Shown: piece after piece, positions 15,668 to 27,849 of the stretch | Numbering within the stretch: the first letter of the stretch is position 1 | How the letters are laid out: each line of letters starts with the position of its first letter | NCBI GenBank assembly: GCA_016182495.1 | Contig: JACPGK010000033.1 | Span: 1 to 46,735, forward strand | Source: Candidatus Kerfeldbacteria bacterium | Lineage (GTDB): Bacteria; Patescibacteriota; Patescibacteriia; UBA9570 | Length of the DNA stretch: 46,735 bases | Direction of reading: 5' to 3' | The notes under the pieces: generated by a model | Told to the model about the DNA's origin: nothing | Database searches by the model: none | Seen by the model: the letters and a program-made list of their open reading frames with translations, nothing else | Position numbers and translations under genes: made by a program

Positions 15668-16399
15668 ATGACTCATGTATATTGGGTAATGATCAGTTTG
15701 TTAGTCGTTGTTGCTAGTAGTGGAATTGGTTGTACTACTCCTGATATGAACAAGCTAGCAACTACCAACGGTGCTGATTTTGATTGGTTGAATGAAACAA
15801 CTAACCTGGCAGCTGAATTGGATCAAACGGAAAAAACAACTACGATTAGTGCTATTTTACAAAATCAAATTCAGCAAGTAGCCGCTCAACCGATATATTA
15901 TCCCATAGCTGAATACCAAACCAAGCGTACTAAAAAAGTGTTTGGTCAGTATATAACTGCGAATAGTGGCGATCGTTTCCAAGGCTACCATACTGGCGAC
16001 GATATTGAAGTGGCTGATACCACAGTTGTTCTACCGGTATATGCTGTAACAGCTGCAACAATCGTGCGTAAACAAGTTGTGTCGGGATATGGCGGAGTAT
16101 TAATAGTTGAATTTAAGTGGAACGATACTTTGTATCATGCCTTATACGGACACCTCGACATTGCTTCGGTGCAGTGGCAACCTGGTGATACCGTGACCGC
16201 CGGGCAACGTTTAGGCGAATTAGGCGATCATGAATCTTCAGAAACTGATGGTGAACGCAAACATTTACATTTTGGACTGTATCAATTTACCGGAGCAGAG
16301 TTATTTGCTGGGTATGTACCAACAGAGGCTGAATTAACGGCCTGGCAGAATCCAGCTGATTTTTTCGAAAGTTATCAGGCCCTCACCCCAAGCAGTTGA
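15668..16399 (+). CDS. M23-family metallopeptidase (LytM-like) lipoprotein
   Basis: GYHTGDDIEVADT and HLHFGLY zinc-site motifs; lipobox-like SSGIGC. Confidence 0.85.
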   Translation: MTHVYWVMISLLVVVASSGIGCTTPDMNKLATTNGADFDWLNETTNLAAELDQTEKTTTISAILQNQIQQVAAQPIYYPIAEYQTKRTKKVFGQYITANSGDRFQGYHTGDDIEVADTTVVLPVYAVTAATIVRKQVVSGYGGVLIVEFKWNDTLYHALYGHLDIASVQWQPGDTVTAGQRLGELGDHESSETDGERKHLHFGLYQFTGAELFAGYVPTEAELTAWQNPADFFESYQALTPSS

Positions 16400-16423
16400 C
16401 AGAAAAAAATGAAGCGGTACACT
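16396..16423 (+). promoter_or_regulatory. Promoter TTGACA-N16-TACACT for the riboswitch transcript
   Basis: TTGACA 16396-16401 overlapping the M23 stop codon; TACACT 16418-16423. Confidence 0.6.
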
Positions 16424-16429
16424 ACCCTA

Positions 16430-16560
16430 GTACCTTTAACAATTCAGCAGGGGAACACCGGTTAAAATCCGGGGCTGTGCCGCAACTGTACATTTTGAGC
16501 AAACCTAGTGCATTGACTAGGCTCAAGATAAGCCAGATTACCTGCTTTTAAGTCACTTTT
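16430..16560 (+). ncRNA. Cobalamin (AdoCbl/B12) riboswitch aptamer
   Basis: GCAGGGGAACACCGGTTAAAATCCGGGGCTGTGCCGCAACTGTA ... AAGCCAGATTACCTGC matches the conserved cobalamin riboswitch core and B12 box. Confidence 0.93.
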
Positions 16561-16618
16561 TAATCCTCGAGCAAGGGGTAGTGGCACGTGATTCTTTAGC
16601 GATTACGTTGACCTATTC

Positions 16619-16642
16619 ACCCTGCTCATTAGCAGGTTTTTT
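16619..16642 (+). terminator. Riboswitch expression-platform intrinsic terminator
   Basis: CCTGCT (16621-16626) catt AGCAGG (16631-16636) TTTTTT (16637-16642), 4 nt before ATG 16647. Confidence 0.85.
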
Positions 16643-16646
16643 ATTT

Positions 16647-17216
16647 ATGCAACCGCGTCTACATCATTATATTTCTTGGGCAGCTTTAGGCAGTATTATT
16701 ATGGCTAGTGCCATAGTATGGCTATGGCGACCACAATTGCAACCGTATCAACCACCAGAGCTGATTGTTCCCACCACTGTAGCCGTTGACCAAGATACTG
16801 TACCAGTAGTGACTTCATCAGTCGTTACTACTCCCCCAGTGTCATCGATAGCTAAAGCTGATGGCACCACTACTATTGAACCAACCAAACCGATTGCTGA
16901 TGGCATCACTACCGCAGTCCAATTAATCATCATTGGGCCAGGAGTGAATTTCAATGAGATAATCACGGTAACTGATGCTATCACCGTTCATCGCTTAATG
17001 AAGCAAGCCAGCACCCAGTTTAGTTTTACCTATCATACAAAAACGTTCTCTGATTTAGGAGTATTTGTTGACGGCTTAGCCGGTGTACAATCAAATGATC
17101 TGCCGGGCCGGTATTGGATTTATTCAGTGAACGGTAAAAAAGCCACCGTTGGAGTTGATCAAAAAACAGTCACTGCCGGTGATACTATTCAATGGAAATA
17201 TGAAGCCGAATATTAA
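16647..17216 (+). CDS. Membrane-anchored DUF4430 (transcobalamin C-terminal-like) protein
   Basis: N-terminal TM, then DUF4430-type domain ...GRYWIYSVNGKKATVGVDQKTVTAGDTIQWKYE; directly behind a B12 riboswitch. Confidence 0.8.
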   Translation: MQPRLHHYISWAALGSIIMASAIVWLWRPQLQPYQPPELIVPTTVAVDQDTVPVVTSSVVTTPPVSSIAKADGTTTIEPTKPIADGITTAVQLIIIGPGVNFNEIITVTDAITVHRLMKQASTQFSFTYHTKTFSDLGVFVDGLAGVQSNDLPGRYWIYSVNGKKATVGVDQKTVTAGDTIQWKYEAEY

Positions 17217-17249
17217 TAATTTTAATCTAACGTACTAACACATTTATTT

Positions 17250-18812
17250 ATGAGAAAAATTTTTTTCTTGTTCAATCTGTTGCTCGCTGCTCCGGTCGCG
17301 GCCCAGGCTACCACCTATACCAGCGTTACCATGCGGATTGAAGCGCCTGATGACACAGTGTATAACGATACGGTGTATATTGCTGATGATGGTTGTACGG
17401 TTACAGATAATAGTGGCGCCGAGCATGATATCATTGGACCAAAAGCGATCTGTGCGTTAGCGGCAGCAGCCGGAGCGGGAGATTTTTCATACGAATTAAT
17501 CGATAGTGACTATGGTTTGTATCTTAATGGTATTAATGATGATACTGGATCGGCCAGTGATTATTGGTCATTCGCGGTTGATTATGTGTTAGCCAGTGTT
17601 GGACTAGCCGATTATGATTTAACTGAAGGCCAAGCGGTGTTGTTAAGCTATGGTGGGTATCCCAACACGCCATTGCAGCTGACTGTTGAAAAAAAACAAC
17701 TGTATACTAAGCAACGATTAGTGGCTCGCGTGACTAAGTATAACGATACTACTGCTACATTTGAACCGGCGGCTGGAATCGCAGTATTGTTTGGTAATCA
17801 TCAGCGTATTACCAATCAAGCTGGTAAAGCTAGCTTTCACCCGCAACAACCAACCGAAGCATTCACTATCGTGGCCAGTGCGGCTGGCTATAGTCAATCA
17901 AATTCAGCCGAAGTACGAGTGTATCAGCATCATCAATCAACTCAAACCATACTGCGTACTGAACGGGAACAACTGGCTCAAACTGGTATGGCCTATTTAT
18001 TGGATAACGCCAGTGATAGTCAATCAATCACCGAATGGTCAGCCGTAGCCTATGGGGCGTTGTTAACCGCTGGGTTAAAAACTGAAGTGAATGCTACTGT
18101 GCAAGCAGCAGTATTAGCCAGTCAGCCAACTGTCAGTGATGGTGCCTCTACCTTGGCGCGGCATATTTTAGCGTTACAAGCATTGAAGATTGATGCTCGA
18201 GCAGCTGATGGCATTGATTATGTGGCGCGTTTAAAAAAAACCGAGAGTAACAATCAGTTTGGTTCGGTTGATTTCGTGAATGATGATATTTATGCCGGAC
18301 TAGCTTTATTAGCTGCTGGTGAAGCTTATACGTCACCAGCCTTAGCGACTGCCTTACAAGCGGCTAAAGCGGGCATTAATGCCGATGGTGGAGCATCCTA
18401 TGCTGTTAGTTTGCCAACCAGCGATGTGGATACCACAGCAGCGTTAGTACAGTTATATGCCGCTGTGCAGGGTGAAGACGATAGTACTGGTGTATATACT
18501 AATGTCGCTCGTCAAGCGGCCGTGCGCTATTTACTTGAGCAACAAAATTATGATGGTGGCTGGGGGTACGCTAATCACGATGATTCCAATACTTCCAGTA
18601 CGGCTCTCGCCGTACAGGGTTTAGCGGCTAGTCAGCACGCCCCACGGTTGATAATGAAAAATAAACGGACAGGGTATAATTTTTTAGAAAATCAACAGCG
18701 TACTTCAGGTGCTTTTCAGTACAACACCGCCGGTGACGCCAGTGTGGAAAGTTTGAATACAGCGTACGCTGTGCCAGCCTTGCTCAATATACCACTACCA
18801 GTCACCCCATAA
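17250..18812 (+). CDS. Secreted protein: DUF4430-like domain + Ig/CarboxypepD_reg-like domain + alpha/alpha-toroid (prenyltransferase/squalene-oxidase-repeat-like)
   Basis: Signal peptide; SDYWSFAVDYVLASVGLADYDLTEGQAVLLSYGG; C-terminal helical repeats QQNYDGGWGYANHDDSNTSSTALAVQGLAA. Confidence 0.75.
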   Translation: MRKIFFLFNLLLAAPVAAQATTYTSVTMRIEAPDDTVYNDTVYIADDGCTVTDNSGAEHDIIGPKAICALAAAAGAGDFSYELIDSDYGLYLNGINDDTGSASDYWSFAVDYVLASVGLADYDLTEGQAVLLSYGGYPNTPLQLTVEKKQLYTKQRLVARVTKYNDTTATFEPAAGIAVLFGNHQRITNQAGKASFHPQQPTEAFTIVASAAGYSQSNSAEVRVYQHHQSTQTILRTEREQLAQTGMAYLLDNASDSQSITEWSAVAYGALLTAGLKTEVNATVQAAVLASQPTVSDGASTLARHILALQALKIDARAADGIDYVARLKKTESNNQFGSVDFVNDDIYAGLALLAAGEAYTSPALATALQAAKAGINADGGASYAVSLPTSDVDTTAALVQLYAAVQGEDDSTGVYTNVARQAAVRYLLEQQNYDGGWGYANHDDSNTSSTALAVQGLAASQHAPRLIMKNKRTGYNFLENQQRTSGAFQYNTAGDASVESLNTAYAVPALLNIPLPVTP

Positions 18813-18830: not shown

Positions 18831-19418
18831 ATGATTCATATTGCTAAAGATTTTTCACACCTGATTGGCCAGTTGCCTGGCATGACTGATAAACAAGTTG
18901 AAACTCATCTGGGATTGTATGCTGGCTACGTAAAAAAATTAAATGAAATTGAAGAAAAATTAAAACTCACTGACCCAGTCGATAGTAACTATTCCTACGG
19001 TGTTTTTTCGGAGTTAAAACGTCGAGAAACAGTCGCCTTTAATGGTTCGTATTTACATCAAAGTTATTTTGAGAACATGACTCCGCAACCATCAGCGGCG
19101 CGTGATGAATTAGATAAAGCTATTATCGAGGCCTGGGGATCACGTGAAAAGTTTGAGGCCGATATTAAAGGTTCAGCTGCATCTACCCCTGGTTGGGTAA
19201 TTTTGACCAAAAATCAAGTCGATGGTCGGTTACATACCTATATTATGTATGAGCATCATATTGGTTTTCCAATTAAGAACGATGTTTTAATGGCACTCGA
19301 TTGCTGGGAACATGCTTTTGCGATTGATTACGGAACTAATAAAGCTGCTTACGTGGATAATTTTTTGAAGGTGGTCGATTGGGAAGTAGTGGCCCAGCGT
19401 TATCAAACATTGCGTTAG
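18831..19418 (+). CDS. Fe/Mn-family superoxide dismutase
   Basis: LHQSYFENM, LDCWEHAFAIDYG metal-ligand signature; TATAGT 18819-18824 just before ATG. Confidence 0.88.
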   Translation: MIHIAKDFSHLIGQLPGMTDKQVETHLGLYAGYVKKLNEIEEKLKLTDPVDSNYSYGVFSELKRRETVAFNGSYLHQSYFENMTPQPSAARDELDKAIIEAWGSREKFEADIKGSAASTPGWVILTKNQVDGRLHTYIMYEHHIGFPIKNDVLMALDCWEHAFAIDYGTNKAAYVDNFLKVVDWEVVAQRYQTLR

Positions 19419-23859: not shown

Positions 23860-24275
23860 TGAACTATCTGCAAGTATTATTAGTATTTGCGATTATTGCC
23901 ATTTTAGCGGCTGTCGCTTCGCCATTTTATCTTCAATTTCAATCGCGGCAACAGTTACAAGCTGCTGCTCAAACCCTGTTATCAGATGTACGGGTCACTC
24001 AAGCCAAAGCCATGGAACGGTATCAAAACACTAGTTGGGGAATACGCTTAGAGGATAGCAATAAACAGTACGTGGTATTTTCCGATGCAAACAATTTTAC
24101 CATACCGTATGCCAATAGCATTACCATTAGTTCTCCTGACCAAGATGTTCAATTTAGTGCTGTTACTGGTGAGCCAAGTAATGGCAGTACTACAATTACA
24201 ATCAGTTCTAGTTGGTTACCGGATGAACCATATACTATTACCATCAATGAAGCTGGCAATACCGAACTTAACTAA
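23859..24275 (+). CDS. GspH-like pseudopilin lacking a canonical leader
   Basis: Hydrophobic N-terminus MNYLQVLLVFAIIAILAAVASPFYLQFQSRQQLQAAAQTLLSDVRVTQ. Confidence 0.7.
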   Translation: MNYLQVLLVFAIIAILAAVASPFYLQFQSRQQLQAAAQTLLSDVRVTQAKAMERYQNTSWGIRLEDSNKQYVVFSDANNFTIPYANSITISSPDQDVQFSAVTGEPSNGSTTITISSSWLPDEPYTITINEAGNTELN

Positions 24276-27200
24276 ACAGCCAGCTGGCATACTGCTGGTT
24301 GAATTGATTATTACCATGGCTGTGTTTGCAGTGTTGGCCACGGGAGCAATTTATTTTTTAACAGCCACGTTATATAGTAGTCAATCCAGTGCCCAACGAG
24401 CGGTAGCGTCGCACTATCTACAAGAAGGGCTCGAAGCCGTTCAACAAATTGATCAGATAGCTTGGAATTATTTAGCCGACCTTCCTAATGTTGAATATGG
24501 CTTGGCACAACGTGAAGGCGTATGGGAACTGGTCACTACACCTGATCACCCGGAAGATAATTCACGCTACACCCGAACTATTATATTTACTGATGTTTAT
24601 CGTGATACCGCTGGCGACATTGTACCGAGCACTGATGATGAAGCGACCTTTGATCCTCATACGCGCGGCGTCACCGTAACCATTGCTTGGGAAAATAGCG
24701 TGCTTGATACCAGTACTATCAGCGCTGATACCTACGTGACTGATTGGATTGCGACCAGCACAACCACTACTACAGCTAGTGCCTGGGCCAATGGTACACT
24801 CACCAACTTACGGATTAGTGCCATTGCTGATGGTGAGTTGCAAATTATTCAATCTCCATTAGAAATTGATAACATCACCATTAACGATACTTGGCAAACG
24901 TTTCCATTTGATAATACCTTTGATCACCCAGTGGTGCTTACCGCCATAGCATCAGCCAATAATCCTAATTCCCCAGTGACTGTCCGAGTGCGTAATATCA
25001 CTGCTACTGGTTTTGATATAAAATTAGATTTTCCGACTGATAACACCACACCGAGTACAACCAATTCAGAAATAGTCACTTATTTGGCTATTGAACCAGG
25101 CATCTGGGAACTGGGTGATGGTGCCACTAAACTGGAAGCCGGTGTGGTTGAAGATGTGTCGGCTTTAAATTGCCAAACTTGTGGTAGTTGGAATCGTGGT
25201 ACTGATATTACCTACCAGCATATCTATTCGACCAATCCAATAGTGTTTCATCAAATTGTGACCGATAATGATTCTGATTGGATTACCTCATTTGTATCTG
25301 ATGATACTTCGGCTACAGCCCCACCTGGCATCGATGGTTTCCAAGTAGCCTTGAACGGGGCAGAAGTAGTTACTGTAGATGATAGCCACGGGGCTGAAGA
25401 TATTGCTTATTTGGTGATTGAGCGTGAAAGAACCGATAGTTTTGAACATATTAAATTTGAAACCGATGCTACTGGTGATACTGTGCGTGGTTTTGATAAT
25501 ACTCCATATCGTCGAGAAAATTTTGATCAAACCTATTTTGGCGCTCCCCTGGTGTTAGCCACTCAAATGAGCATGGATGCTACGGATGGCAGCTGGGGCA
25601 AGGTTACCGGTATCACCGCCAGTCGGCTAGATTTGTATGTTGATGAAGATCAAACCAATGATGCTGAACGATCTACTACCACTGAAGATATGGGCTACAT
25701 GGCGTTTGCTCAACCAGGCACATACTATCTCAATGACGCTGATGTGGTGTACGATGCCCCACCGTTTGAAGTAGGCGTGGTTACTGGTACTACCACTGCC
25801 AACCTTGAGGTCGGTATCACCACTGCCTCTACCAGTTGGTCAACGGTTAACTTGACCAATACCTATACTACCCCAGTGGTCGTTGCCACCATTCAGGATG
25901 GCAACAATCCTGCTACCCCAGTGACTGTGCGGGTGCGTAATGCCACGGTCAATAGTTTTGAAGTACGGTTAGATATTCCACCAGATAATTTTAACCCAAC
26001 CAGTAGTAATGCCGAAACCGTCAATTATCTTGTGGTCGAAGCTGGGGTATGGCGCTTAGGCAATAGCGGTATTAAGCTCGAAGCTGGTGTGCAAGATAAT
26101 GTTAGTCGGGTGAACTGCTTTTCTTGCGGCGGTTGGAATAACGGCGTTGATGTGAGTTATACCAATGGGTATAGTGCTGCTCCAGTGGTGCTGCATCAAG
26201 TGATGAGCGAGCATGATAGTAGTTGGATTACCTCATTTGTATCTGATGATACTTCGGCTACAGCCCCACCTGGCACCGATGGTTTCCAAGTAGCCTTGAA
26301 CGGGGCAGAAGTAACGGCTAGCCATGAGGCAGAAGATATTGGCTATGTGGTGATTGAAGCCGAAAAAACGGCTACGGCCAATAGCGTGGCTTTTGAAACT
26401 GATACTACTGGCGACATTGTGCGCGGGTTCGACGATACGCACTACACCGATACATTCGATCATACCTACATAACTGCCCCAATCGTACTGGCCGCTCAAA
26501 CCACCAGTGATGCTACCGAAGGCAGTTGGGCAATGCTCGATAGTGTAACACCAACCCAAGTCACTTTGTATGCAGATGAAGATCAAACTCGTGATCGAGA
26601 ACGATCACATACGTCGGAAGATTTTAGTTACCTTGCTTTTGGCCAAGCTGGATCATTCACTCTCACTGACAATAATTTTTTGCGTAACCCTGTTACCGTT
26701 AATTTGGCACAATCCTATACTAATCCGGTGGTAATCACTTCACCCTGGTTAACCAGTGATACTAATTCACCGGTGTCTACCCGAGTGTATGATGTCACTT
26801 CTACCGCTTTTACTGTGCAATTTGATTTTCCAACTGATAATTTTTCACCTCGTAACACGACCTTTTCTGACCAAGTATATTATTTAGTGATGGAGGAAGG
26901 AGATTGGCAAATTGGTGATATGAAAATCGAAGCCCATCGCGATACCAGTAGTACAGTGGCGTCATCTATTTCCTGGACGGGTGATACTAAAAATTTTAAT
27001 CACCACTATAGTAACGCTCCAATTGTACTACATCAGGTAATGAGTCGTAATGATCCAACCTGGATTAGTTCATGGGTGAGTCAGCCGAGCAGTCGCACTA
27101 ATCCACCAACGCGCACTAGCCTACAAATTGCCATGAATGCAGCCCAAGTGGTGCCGAGCCGAACGCATGGCCCAGAAACCATTGGTTGGATTGCCTTTGA

Positions 27201-27849
27201 AAATATTGGTACTGGAGTAGTTGATACCACCGAATTTCGTACTATGTGGAATACTGAATTTGCTGGCGGGCATAGTAATGGTTGCTATAATTATAGCCAT
27301 GGTGGTAATTACGCTAACGCGCGAGCCGTAGTGAGCCAAATGAGCATGGATAATAGTGATGGCAGTTGGGCGGCGCTTTGTAATATTACCACTACCGATA
27401 TTAGTATGCATTTTGAAGAAGATCAGTATAGTGATAGCGAGCGGTCACATCAAAATGAGGCCGTTGGGGCAGTGATATTTGCCGATGACATTGTGTTTCC
27501 TGGAGCGGTTGATACCTCTCACCATACCATTGGCACATACCAATCAGAGATTTTTGGTAGCAATACCGAGCGCAATTATAATATTATTGAATGGTTCAAT
27601 CAGATCGATTGTAGCAACTGTACGGTGAGTGTTCAACTACGCACCGCTGATACAGTTGATAATTTGGCCTTGGCCGGTTTTGTTGGCCCGGATGGTACCA
27701 CTGCTACTATCTATAGCAATGCCAGCGGAGATTTATTATCACTCAATAGCCTTAATCAGCGATACCTTCAATATGTTATGACCATCACCGGCACTACAGC
27801 CGAATCACCAAAAGTTGAAGCCACTACCATTACGTTGTATGAACGCTAA
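24247..27849 (+). CDS. Giant prepilin-like protein (~1200 aa) with three tandem modules of H-type-lectin-like repeats
   Basis: Prepilin motif G|ILLVELIITMAVFAVLATGAIYFL; repeats such as PVVLTAIASANNPNSPVTVRVRNITATGFDIKLDFP; start re-placed from 24085 to ATG 24247. Confidence 0.75.
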   Translation: MKLAIPNLTKQPAGILLVELIITMAVFAVLATGAIYFLTATLYSSQSSAQRAVASHYLQEGLEAVQQIDQIAWNYLADLPNVEYGLAQREGVWELVTTPDHPEDNSRYTRTIIFTDVYRDTAGDIVPSTDDEATFDPHTRGVTVTIAWENSVLDTSTISADTYVTDWIATSTTTTTASAWANGTLTNLRISAIADGELQIIQSPLEIDNITINDTWQTFPFDNTFDHPVVLTAIASANNPNSPVTVRVRNITATGFDIKLDFPTDNTTPSTTNSEIVTYLAIEPGIWELGDGATKLEAGVVEDVSALNCQTCGSWNRGTDITYQHIYSTNPIVFHQIVTDNDSDWITSFVSDDTSATAPPGIDGFQVALNGAEVVTVDDSHGAEDIAYLVIERERTDSFEHIKFETDATGDTVRGFDNTPYRRENFDQTYFGAPLVLATQMSMDATDGSWGKVTGITASRLDLYVDEDQTNDAERSTTTEDMGYMAFAQPGTYYLNDADVVYDAPPFEVGVVTGTTTANLEVGITTASTSWSTVNLTNTYTTPVVVATIQDGNNPATPVTVRVRNATVNSFEVRLDIPPDNFNPTSSNAETVNYLVVEAGVWRLGNSGIKLEAGVQDNVSRVNCFSCGGWNNGVDVSYTNGYSAAPVVLHQVMSEHDSSWITSFVSDDTSATAPPGTDGFQVALNGAEVTASHEAEDIGYVVIEAEKTATANSVAFETDTTGDIVRGFDDTHYTDTFDHTYITAPIVLAAQTTSDATEGSWAMLDSVTPTQVTLYADEDQTRDRERSHTSEDFSYLAFGQAGSFTLTDNNFLRNPVTVNLAQSYTNPVVITSPWLTSDTNSPVSTRVYDVTSTAFTVQFDFPTDNFSPRNTTFSDQVYYLVMEEGDWQIGDMKIEAHRDTSSTVASSISWTGDTKNFNHHYSNAPIVLHQVMSRNDPTWISSWVSQPSSRTNPPTRTSLQIAMNAAQVVPSRTHGPETIGWIAFENIGTGVVDTTEFRTMWNTEFAGGHSNGCYNYSHGGNYANARAVVSQMSMDNSDGSWAALCNITTTDISMHFEEDQYSDSERSHQNEAVGAVIFADDIVFPGAVDTSHHTIGTYQSEIFGSNTERNYNIIEWFNQIDCSNCTVSVQLRTADTVDNLALAGFVGPDGTTATIYSNASGDLLSLNSLNQRYLQYVMTITGTTAESPKVEATTITLYER
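25278..25368 (+). repeat. 91-bp near-identical direct repeat, copy 1
   Basis: Matches 26223-26313 with one mismatch (GGCATCG vs GGCACCG). Confidence 0.9.
26223..26313 (+). repeat. 91-bp near-identical direct repeat, copy 2
   Basis: See copy 1 at 25278-25368. Confidence 0.9.

Follow-up and report, generated by a model that had tools for sequence, protein, structure and literature searches.

In Bacteroidetes, vitamin B12 (cobalamin) is captured at the cell surface by BtuG together with BtuB and BtuFCD, an outer-membrane route that is often controlled by riboswitches. Bacterial fusions of an alpha/alpha toroid with an SLBB domain of the transcobalamin-like clade have been described in Gram-positives; Burroughs et al. 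(2007; PMC1796856) reported both domain orders in bacteria and proposed that the two domains bind B12 jointly. Riboswitches are not mentioned in the text of that paper (term count 0). The transporter ECF-CbrT of Lactobacillus delbrueckii carries cobinamide as well as B12, and solitary CbrT without the ECF module did not support growth (PMC5997447). BtuM of Thiobacillus denitrificans is a solitary B12 S-component encoded beside btuR, and trapping of the vitamin has been proposed for it (PMC6072759). Our literature search found no B12-uptake system in Patescibacteria and no paper naming DUF6580.

The window analyzed in the present study is a stretch of 46,735 nucleotides from a Candidatus Kerfeldbacteria genome. 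A preliminary description of this window placed a cobalamin riboswitch upstream of two exported proteins (ORF A and ORF B) and read the locus as a surface system for cobalamin capture. The arrangement was confirmed, and the reading is supported. We consider the locus to encode a module that captures cobalamin at the surface under riboswitch control and feeds a DUF6580 importer, with a probability of approximately 0.75; binding and transport are both predictions. An episymbiotic lifestyle, also part of the earlier description, may be presumed from the phylum. Elsewhere in the window, a cluster of type IV pilus-like genes contains a 1254-aa ORF without a Pfam match (24085-27849).

The riboswitch aptamer (RF00174) occupies positions 16401-16563 of the plus strand, which also carries the promoter-like site, the hairpin, and both ORFs. 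It was detected using cmscan in a relaxed Rfam search (25.5 bits, E=1.2e-4, full-length match to model positions 1-189). This score is below the RF00174 gathering score of 31.5, which several relatives exceed, and Rfam at the gathering threshold missed the element. It is the only RF00174 match in the genome (1.3 Mb, 96% complete), and it recurs upstream of homologous genes. A consensus scan found a promoter-like site, TTGACA-16-TACACT (16396-16423; 10/12), immediately 5' of the aptamer; TTGACA also precedes the riboswitch at the related loci L133 and L134 and, by eye, at L135. An intrinsic-terminator-like hairpin, CCTGCTCATTAGCAGG-TTTTTT (16621-16636; 16621-16646 for hairpin and T-run), was found by a terminator scan, and its six T residues end directly 5' of ATG 16647. 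This hairpin is a likely expression platform of the riboswitch, for which switching is predicted. The 3' arm of the terminator contains AGCAGGT (16631-16637), the exact complement of ACCTGCT in the aptamer (16540-16546), which fits a presumed ligand-dependent termination. The pairing may act as an antiterminator; AGCAGG at 16446 is an alternative possible partner of the aptamer segment. GTG 16581 was rejected as the start of ORF A because the terminator lies between it and ATG 16647, which is most likely the start codon.

ORF A (16647-17216) encodes 189 aa with a hydrophobic N-terminal transmembrane anchor, as judged by eye, and a DUF4430 domain at aa 130-186 (17034-17204; PF14478, E=2.9e-14), in agreement with its earlier designation as a membrane-anchored DUF4430 protein. 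When its family profile (A9) was compared with the PDB, the only matches were transcobalamins (transcobalamin-2 and haptocorrin) and intrinsic factor, the best being transcobalamin-2 (E=3.1e-9).

ORF B (17250-18812) encodes 520 aa with a signal peptide, again judged by eye. Its transcobalamin beta-domain-like (DUF4430) domain spans aa ~22-146 (17313-17687) and matched Pfam above the cut-off (E=4.8e-5). The Ig-like domain at aa ~150-225 (17697-17924) forms beta strands in the structural model, and its match to CarboxypepD_reg was weak (E=0.02). The toroid at aa ~236-511 (17955-18782) matched Prenyltrans (2.2e-5) and SQHop_cyclase_C (5e-5), both slightly below the cut-offs. The AlphaFold2 model, built from seven sequences, had a mean pLDDT of 86.9 and a pTM of 0.71, and its parts follow one another as beta domain (aa ~23-146 in the model), Ig-like domain, and helical toroid. 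Foldseek matched the model with squalene-hopene cyclases at a TM of 0.57 on the target, as well as with barrels of GH88/GH105 and toroids of the complement type. The proposed domain composition was borne out by Pfam, AlphaFold, and Foldseek, including the alpha/alpha toroid in the C-terminal region. An Fe/Mn superoxide dismutase gene (18831-19418) starts 19 bases 3' of ORF B and is perhaps co-transcribed; a thioredoxin/peroxiredoxin-like gene takes its place in the related genomes G001 and G003.

A kinship of DUF4430 to the C-terminal beta domain of transcobalamin and intrinsic factor had been stated at the outset, and it was recovered for both proteins. Profile A8, built from eleven beta domains of ORF B and related proteins, matched ten PDB sequences, namely, transcobalamin-2, transcobalamin-1, intrinsic factor, and one DUF4430 protein, with transcobalamin-2 as the best match (E=1.9e-7). 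Judged by these profile matches, the beta domains of ORF A and ORF B are homologous to those of transcobalamin and intrinsic factor. In the beta-domain alignment, one cysteine column is invariant in both domain orders, and the position of a second cysteine is shifted between the orders; the two may form a disulphide.

In sequence, the toroid of ORF B resembles squalene cyclases more closely than it does the alpha domain of transcobalamin. Its best sequence matches are squalene and drimenyl cyclases, transcobalamin was absent among the top 50 Foldseek matches of the model, and Pfam Cobalamin_bind (PF01122) gave no match in ORF B at E<=1. ORF B might accordingly be an enzyme resembling terpene cyclases or prenyltransferases, or a thioester protein with nothing but the toroid in common, since complement and alpha2-macroglobulin were also ranked by Foldseek. 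However, the DxDD motif of cyclases is degenerate, reading DVDT in the window and DIDM, DTND, DSNS, or DVDM in relatives; among the relatives compared, only G029 has an intact motif (DVDD). The toroid also lacks a cysteine for a thioester, the only cysteines of ORF B being Cys49 and Cys68 in the beta domain. Furthermore, ORF B is exported, its toroid is joined to a transcobalamin beta domain, and B12 riboswitches precede it. The cyclase and thioester readings were rejected in the absence of their motifs, and we regard both as highly improbable.

The reversed domain order that had been noted in the window, with the beta domain first and the toroid last, is real according to Pfam and AlphaFold, although it was already reported for bacteria in 2007 (PMC1796856). 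In most relatives of the class outside the taxonomic order, the toroid precedes the beta domain, as it does in animals. In a quick tree of 43 toroids with moderate support, a single change between the two orders suffices for the rows of known order. An AlphaFold model of the toroid-first homologue at L138, which was built from a two-sequence alignment, reached a pLDDT of 36 and was set aside. In riboswitch operons, an exported Ig-like protein of ~170-200 aa recurs 3' of the toroid-first gene (L093:7171-7746, L094:1778-2383, L098:8477-9019, L096:10803-11321, and L099:9087-9656), in some cases with a C-terminal transmembrane stretch.

The survey of relatives showed that the linkage of riboswitch, DUF4430, and toroid recurs. 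Homologues of ORF B were present in 13 of 57 related genomes; records of Ca. Kerfeldbacteria, Ca. Magasanikbacteria, and Parcubacteria are among the named relatives. For 12 of these 13 relatives, all from the class, Rfam placed RF00174 shortly 5' of the gene for the toroid protein, and in the remaining one, G001, the riboswitch core is readable by eye. Homologous proteins are preceded by different cobalamin riboswitch subclasses, as illustrated by AdoCbl-II at L138 (66.5 bits) and L140 (58.8 bits) and AdoCbl at L137 (52.1 bits), all above gathering scores. Across the phylum, 100 of 380 genomes matched the profile, a count that takes in lone DUF4430 and toroid-only matches. A riboswitch lies directly 5' of the toroid gene in 21 of 28 genomes checked phylum-wide. 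The protein of L139 is identical to that of G306 and was counted once. The other seven loci have no adjacent detected riboswitch: the locus of G336 is cut at a contig end, G166 and G095 carry a riboswitch elsewhere, and none was detected in G399, G369, G194, or G273. Cobalamin riboswitches without a DUF4430 match were observed in G002 (L100) and G007 (L101); a 123-aa lipoprotein-like ORF follows that of G002, and the contig of G007 ends at this point.

The genome of the window encodes NrdR, CobA, NrdJ, and a DUF6580 protein contiguously on a contig other than that of the operon (C16), and no riboswitch was detected with this DUF6580 gene. In many relatives, a riboswitch lies directly 5' of DUF4430-DUF6580; the operon often has this composition, with NrdJ and CobA or a PduO-type adenosyltransferase adjoining. 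DUF6580 was present in all 27 DUF4430 genomes (Fisher p=2.9e-13) and all 22 riboswitch genomes (p=1.7e-9) among the 57, and DUF4430 occurred in none of the 12 genomes with class III NrdD (p=1.2e-4); these p-values overstate independence because the genomes are related. The same distribution bears on whether ORF B is a surface adhesion or host-contact protein tuned by B12 status, in which DUF4430 would be structural filler. Ig-like modules and the large multidomain relatives at L137 and L139 would suit such a role, but DUF4430 genes stand alone with a riboswitch and DUF6580 in many relatives, and no DUF4430 genome lacks DUF6580. We find a role in adhesion very hard to credit and favor cobalamin capture.

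The DUF6580 profile (15 rows) had a single, weak PDB match, 6fnp_A (E=8.1e-4). This entry is the B12 transporter ECF-CbrT (PMC5997447), and chain A is presumably CbrT, judging from its size and name. Family searches with matching positive controls found no CbiQ/EcfT in the 57 genomes. No BtuC-type permease was found in the genome of the window by a FecCD family search, in which the sole match was sub-threshold and was rejected as BtuC, being a ZnuB-type permease. The earlier statement that BtuCDF and ECF-type transporters are missing from the window therefore holds for the genome as searched. The chances appear about even that DUF6580 is a solitary, ATPase-free B12 importer that forms, with the transcobalamin-like surface proteins, a distinct uptake route of Patescibacteria supplying a B12-dependent ribonucleotide reductase.

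B12-dependent NrdJ is the only ribonucleotide reductase detected in the genome. With the NrdJ model, to which genomes carrying class I enzymes (E. coli, for example) respond as well, one reductase was found, and no class III NrdD was detected; these absences rest on family searches. Among relatives, NrdJ of G004 has ~1174 aa (L123:5828-9352), and the match to the NrdJ family breaks in two at model position ~282 both there and in G009:C161, suggesting an intein or a large insert at the same site. In G001, a TAA interruption divides nrdJ (L121:5823-8207) into two ORFs of 242 and 549 aa.

These observations support the extension of the two-protein operon to a predicted pathway of capture, import, adenosylation, and use. 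When B12 is scarce, the riboswitch would let transcription through. ORF B may hold cobalamin between its beta domain and toroid, like animal transcobalamin, and the membrane-anchored ORF A may help to hand it on. DUF6580, as a CbrT-like S-component without an ECF module, would move cobalamin through the membrane, and CobA would adenosylate it and thereby trap it. NrdJ, which most likely is what the captured B12 serves, would use the adenosylated form in deoxyribonucleotide synthesis. NrdJ requires an adenosylated cobamide that need not strictly be DMB-cobalamin, and this latitude would also suit a module that captures another corrinoid or tetrapyrrole (cobinamide, pseudo-B12, or heme) under cobalamin control. 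B12 riboswitches and transporters often tolerate several corrinoids, as ECF-CbrT does cobinamide (PMC5997447), and our search for cobamide-assembly genes covered CobA only. However, the relatives of the beta domains with structures are cobalamin carriers, and we consider a ligand other than cobalamin unlikely.

If cobalamin is captured as proposed, the bacterium appears to need B12 from outside for the essential step of dNTP synthesis. The proteins presumed to bring it in are bacterial kin of intrinsic factor, and B12 itself regulates them. DUF6580 thereby gains a testable function, and the gene set offers a signature of B12 scavenging for uncultured genomes. The window module resembles BtuG/BtuB/BtuFCD in its role, whereas the folds are unrelated and a BtuC-type permease was undetected here. 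DUF6580 is a small membrane protein whose profile matches the CbrT entry weakly (PMC5997447). Similar to BtuM (PMC6072759), it lacks an ECF module and adjoins a CobA/BtuR gene; unlike BtuM with its cobalt-ligating cysteine, it has no conserved cysteine in our alignment (A4). It differs from BtuM and CbrT as a predicted importer tied to transcobalamin-like exported binders. The SLBB toroid fusions (PMC1796856) likewise carry the toroid at either terminus and were proposed to bind B12, whereas the present proteins are from Patescibacteria, are linked to riboswitches, and have DUF6580, CobA, and NrdJ as their context; for them, the change of domain order was also traced on a tree of toroids. The protein architecture has been known since 2007; the riboswitch linkage, the phylum-wide spread, and the assignment of DUF6580 as an importer appear to be new relative to the literature searched. 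Animal transcobalamin, intrinsic factor, and haptocorrin share with ORF B an alpha/alpha toroid, a homologous beta-grasp domain, export, and, as a prediction, B12 binding. The window protein differs in being bacterial and riboswitch-controlled, in its reversed domain order, and in the Ig-like domain between the two parts, and its toroid is not detectably nearer to theirs than to cyclases. That one phylum holds both transcobalamin domain orders is relevant to the proposal that the animal B12 carriers arose in bacteria.
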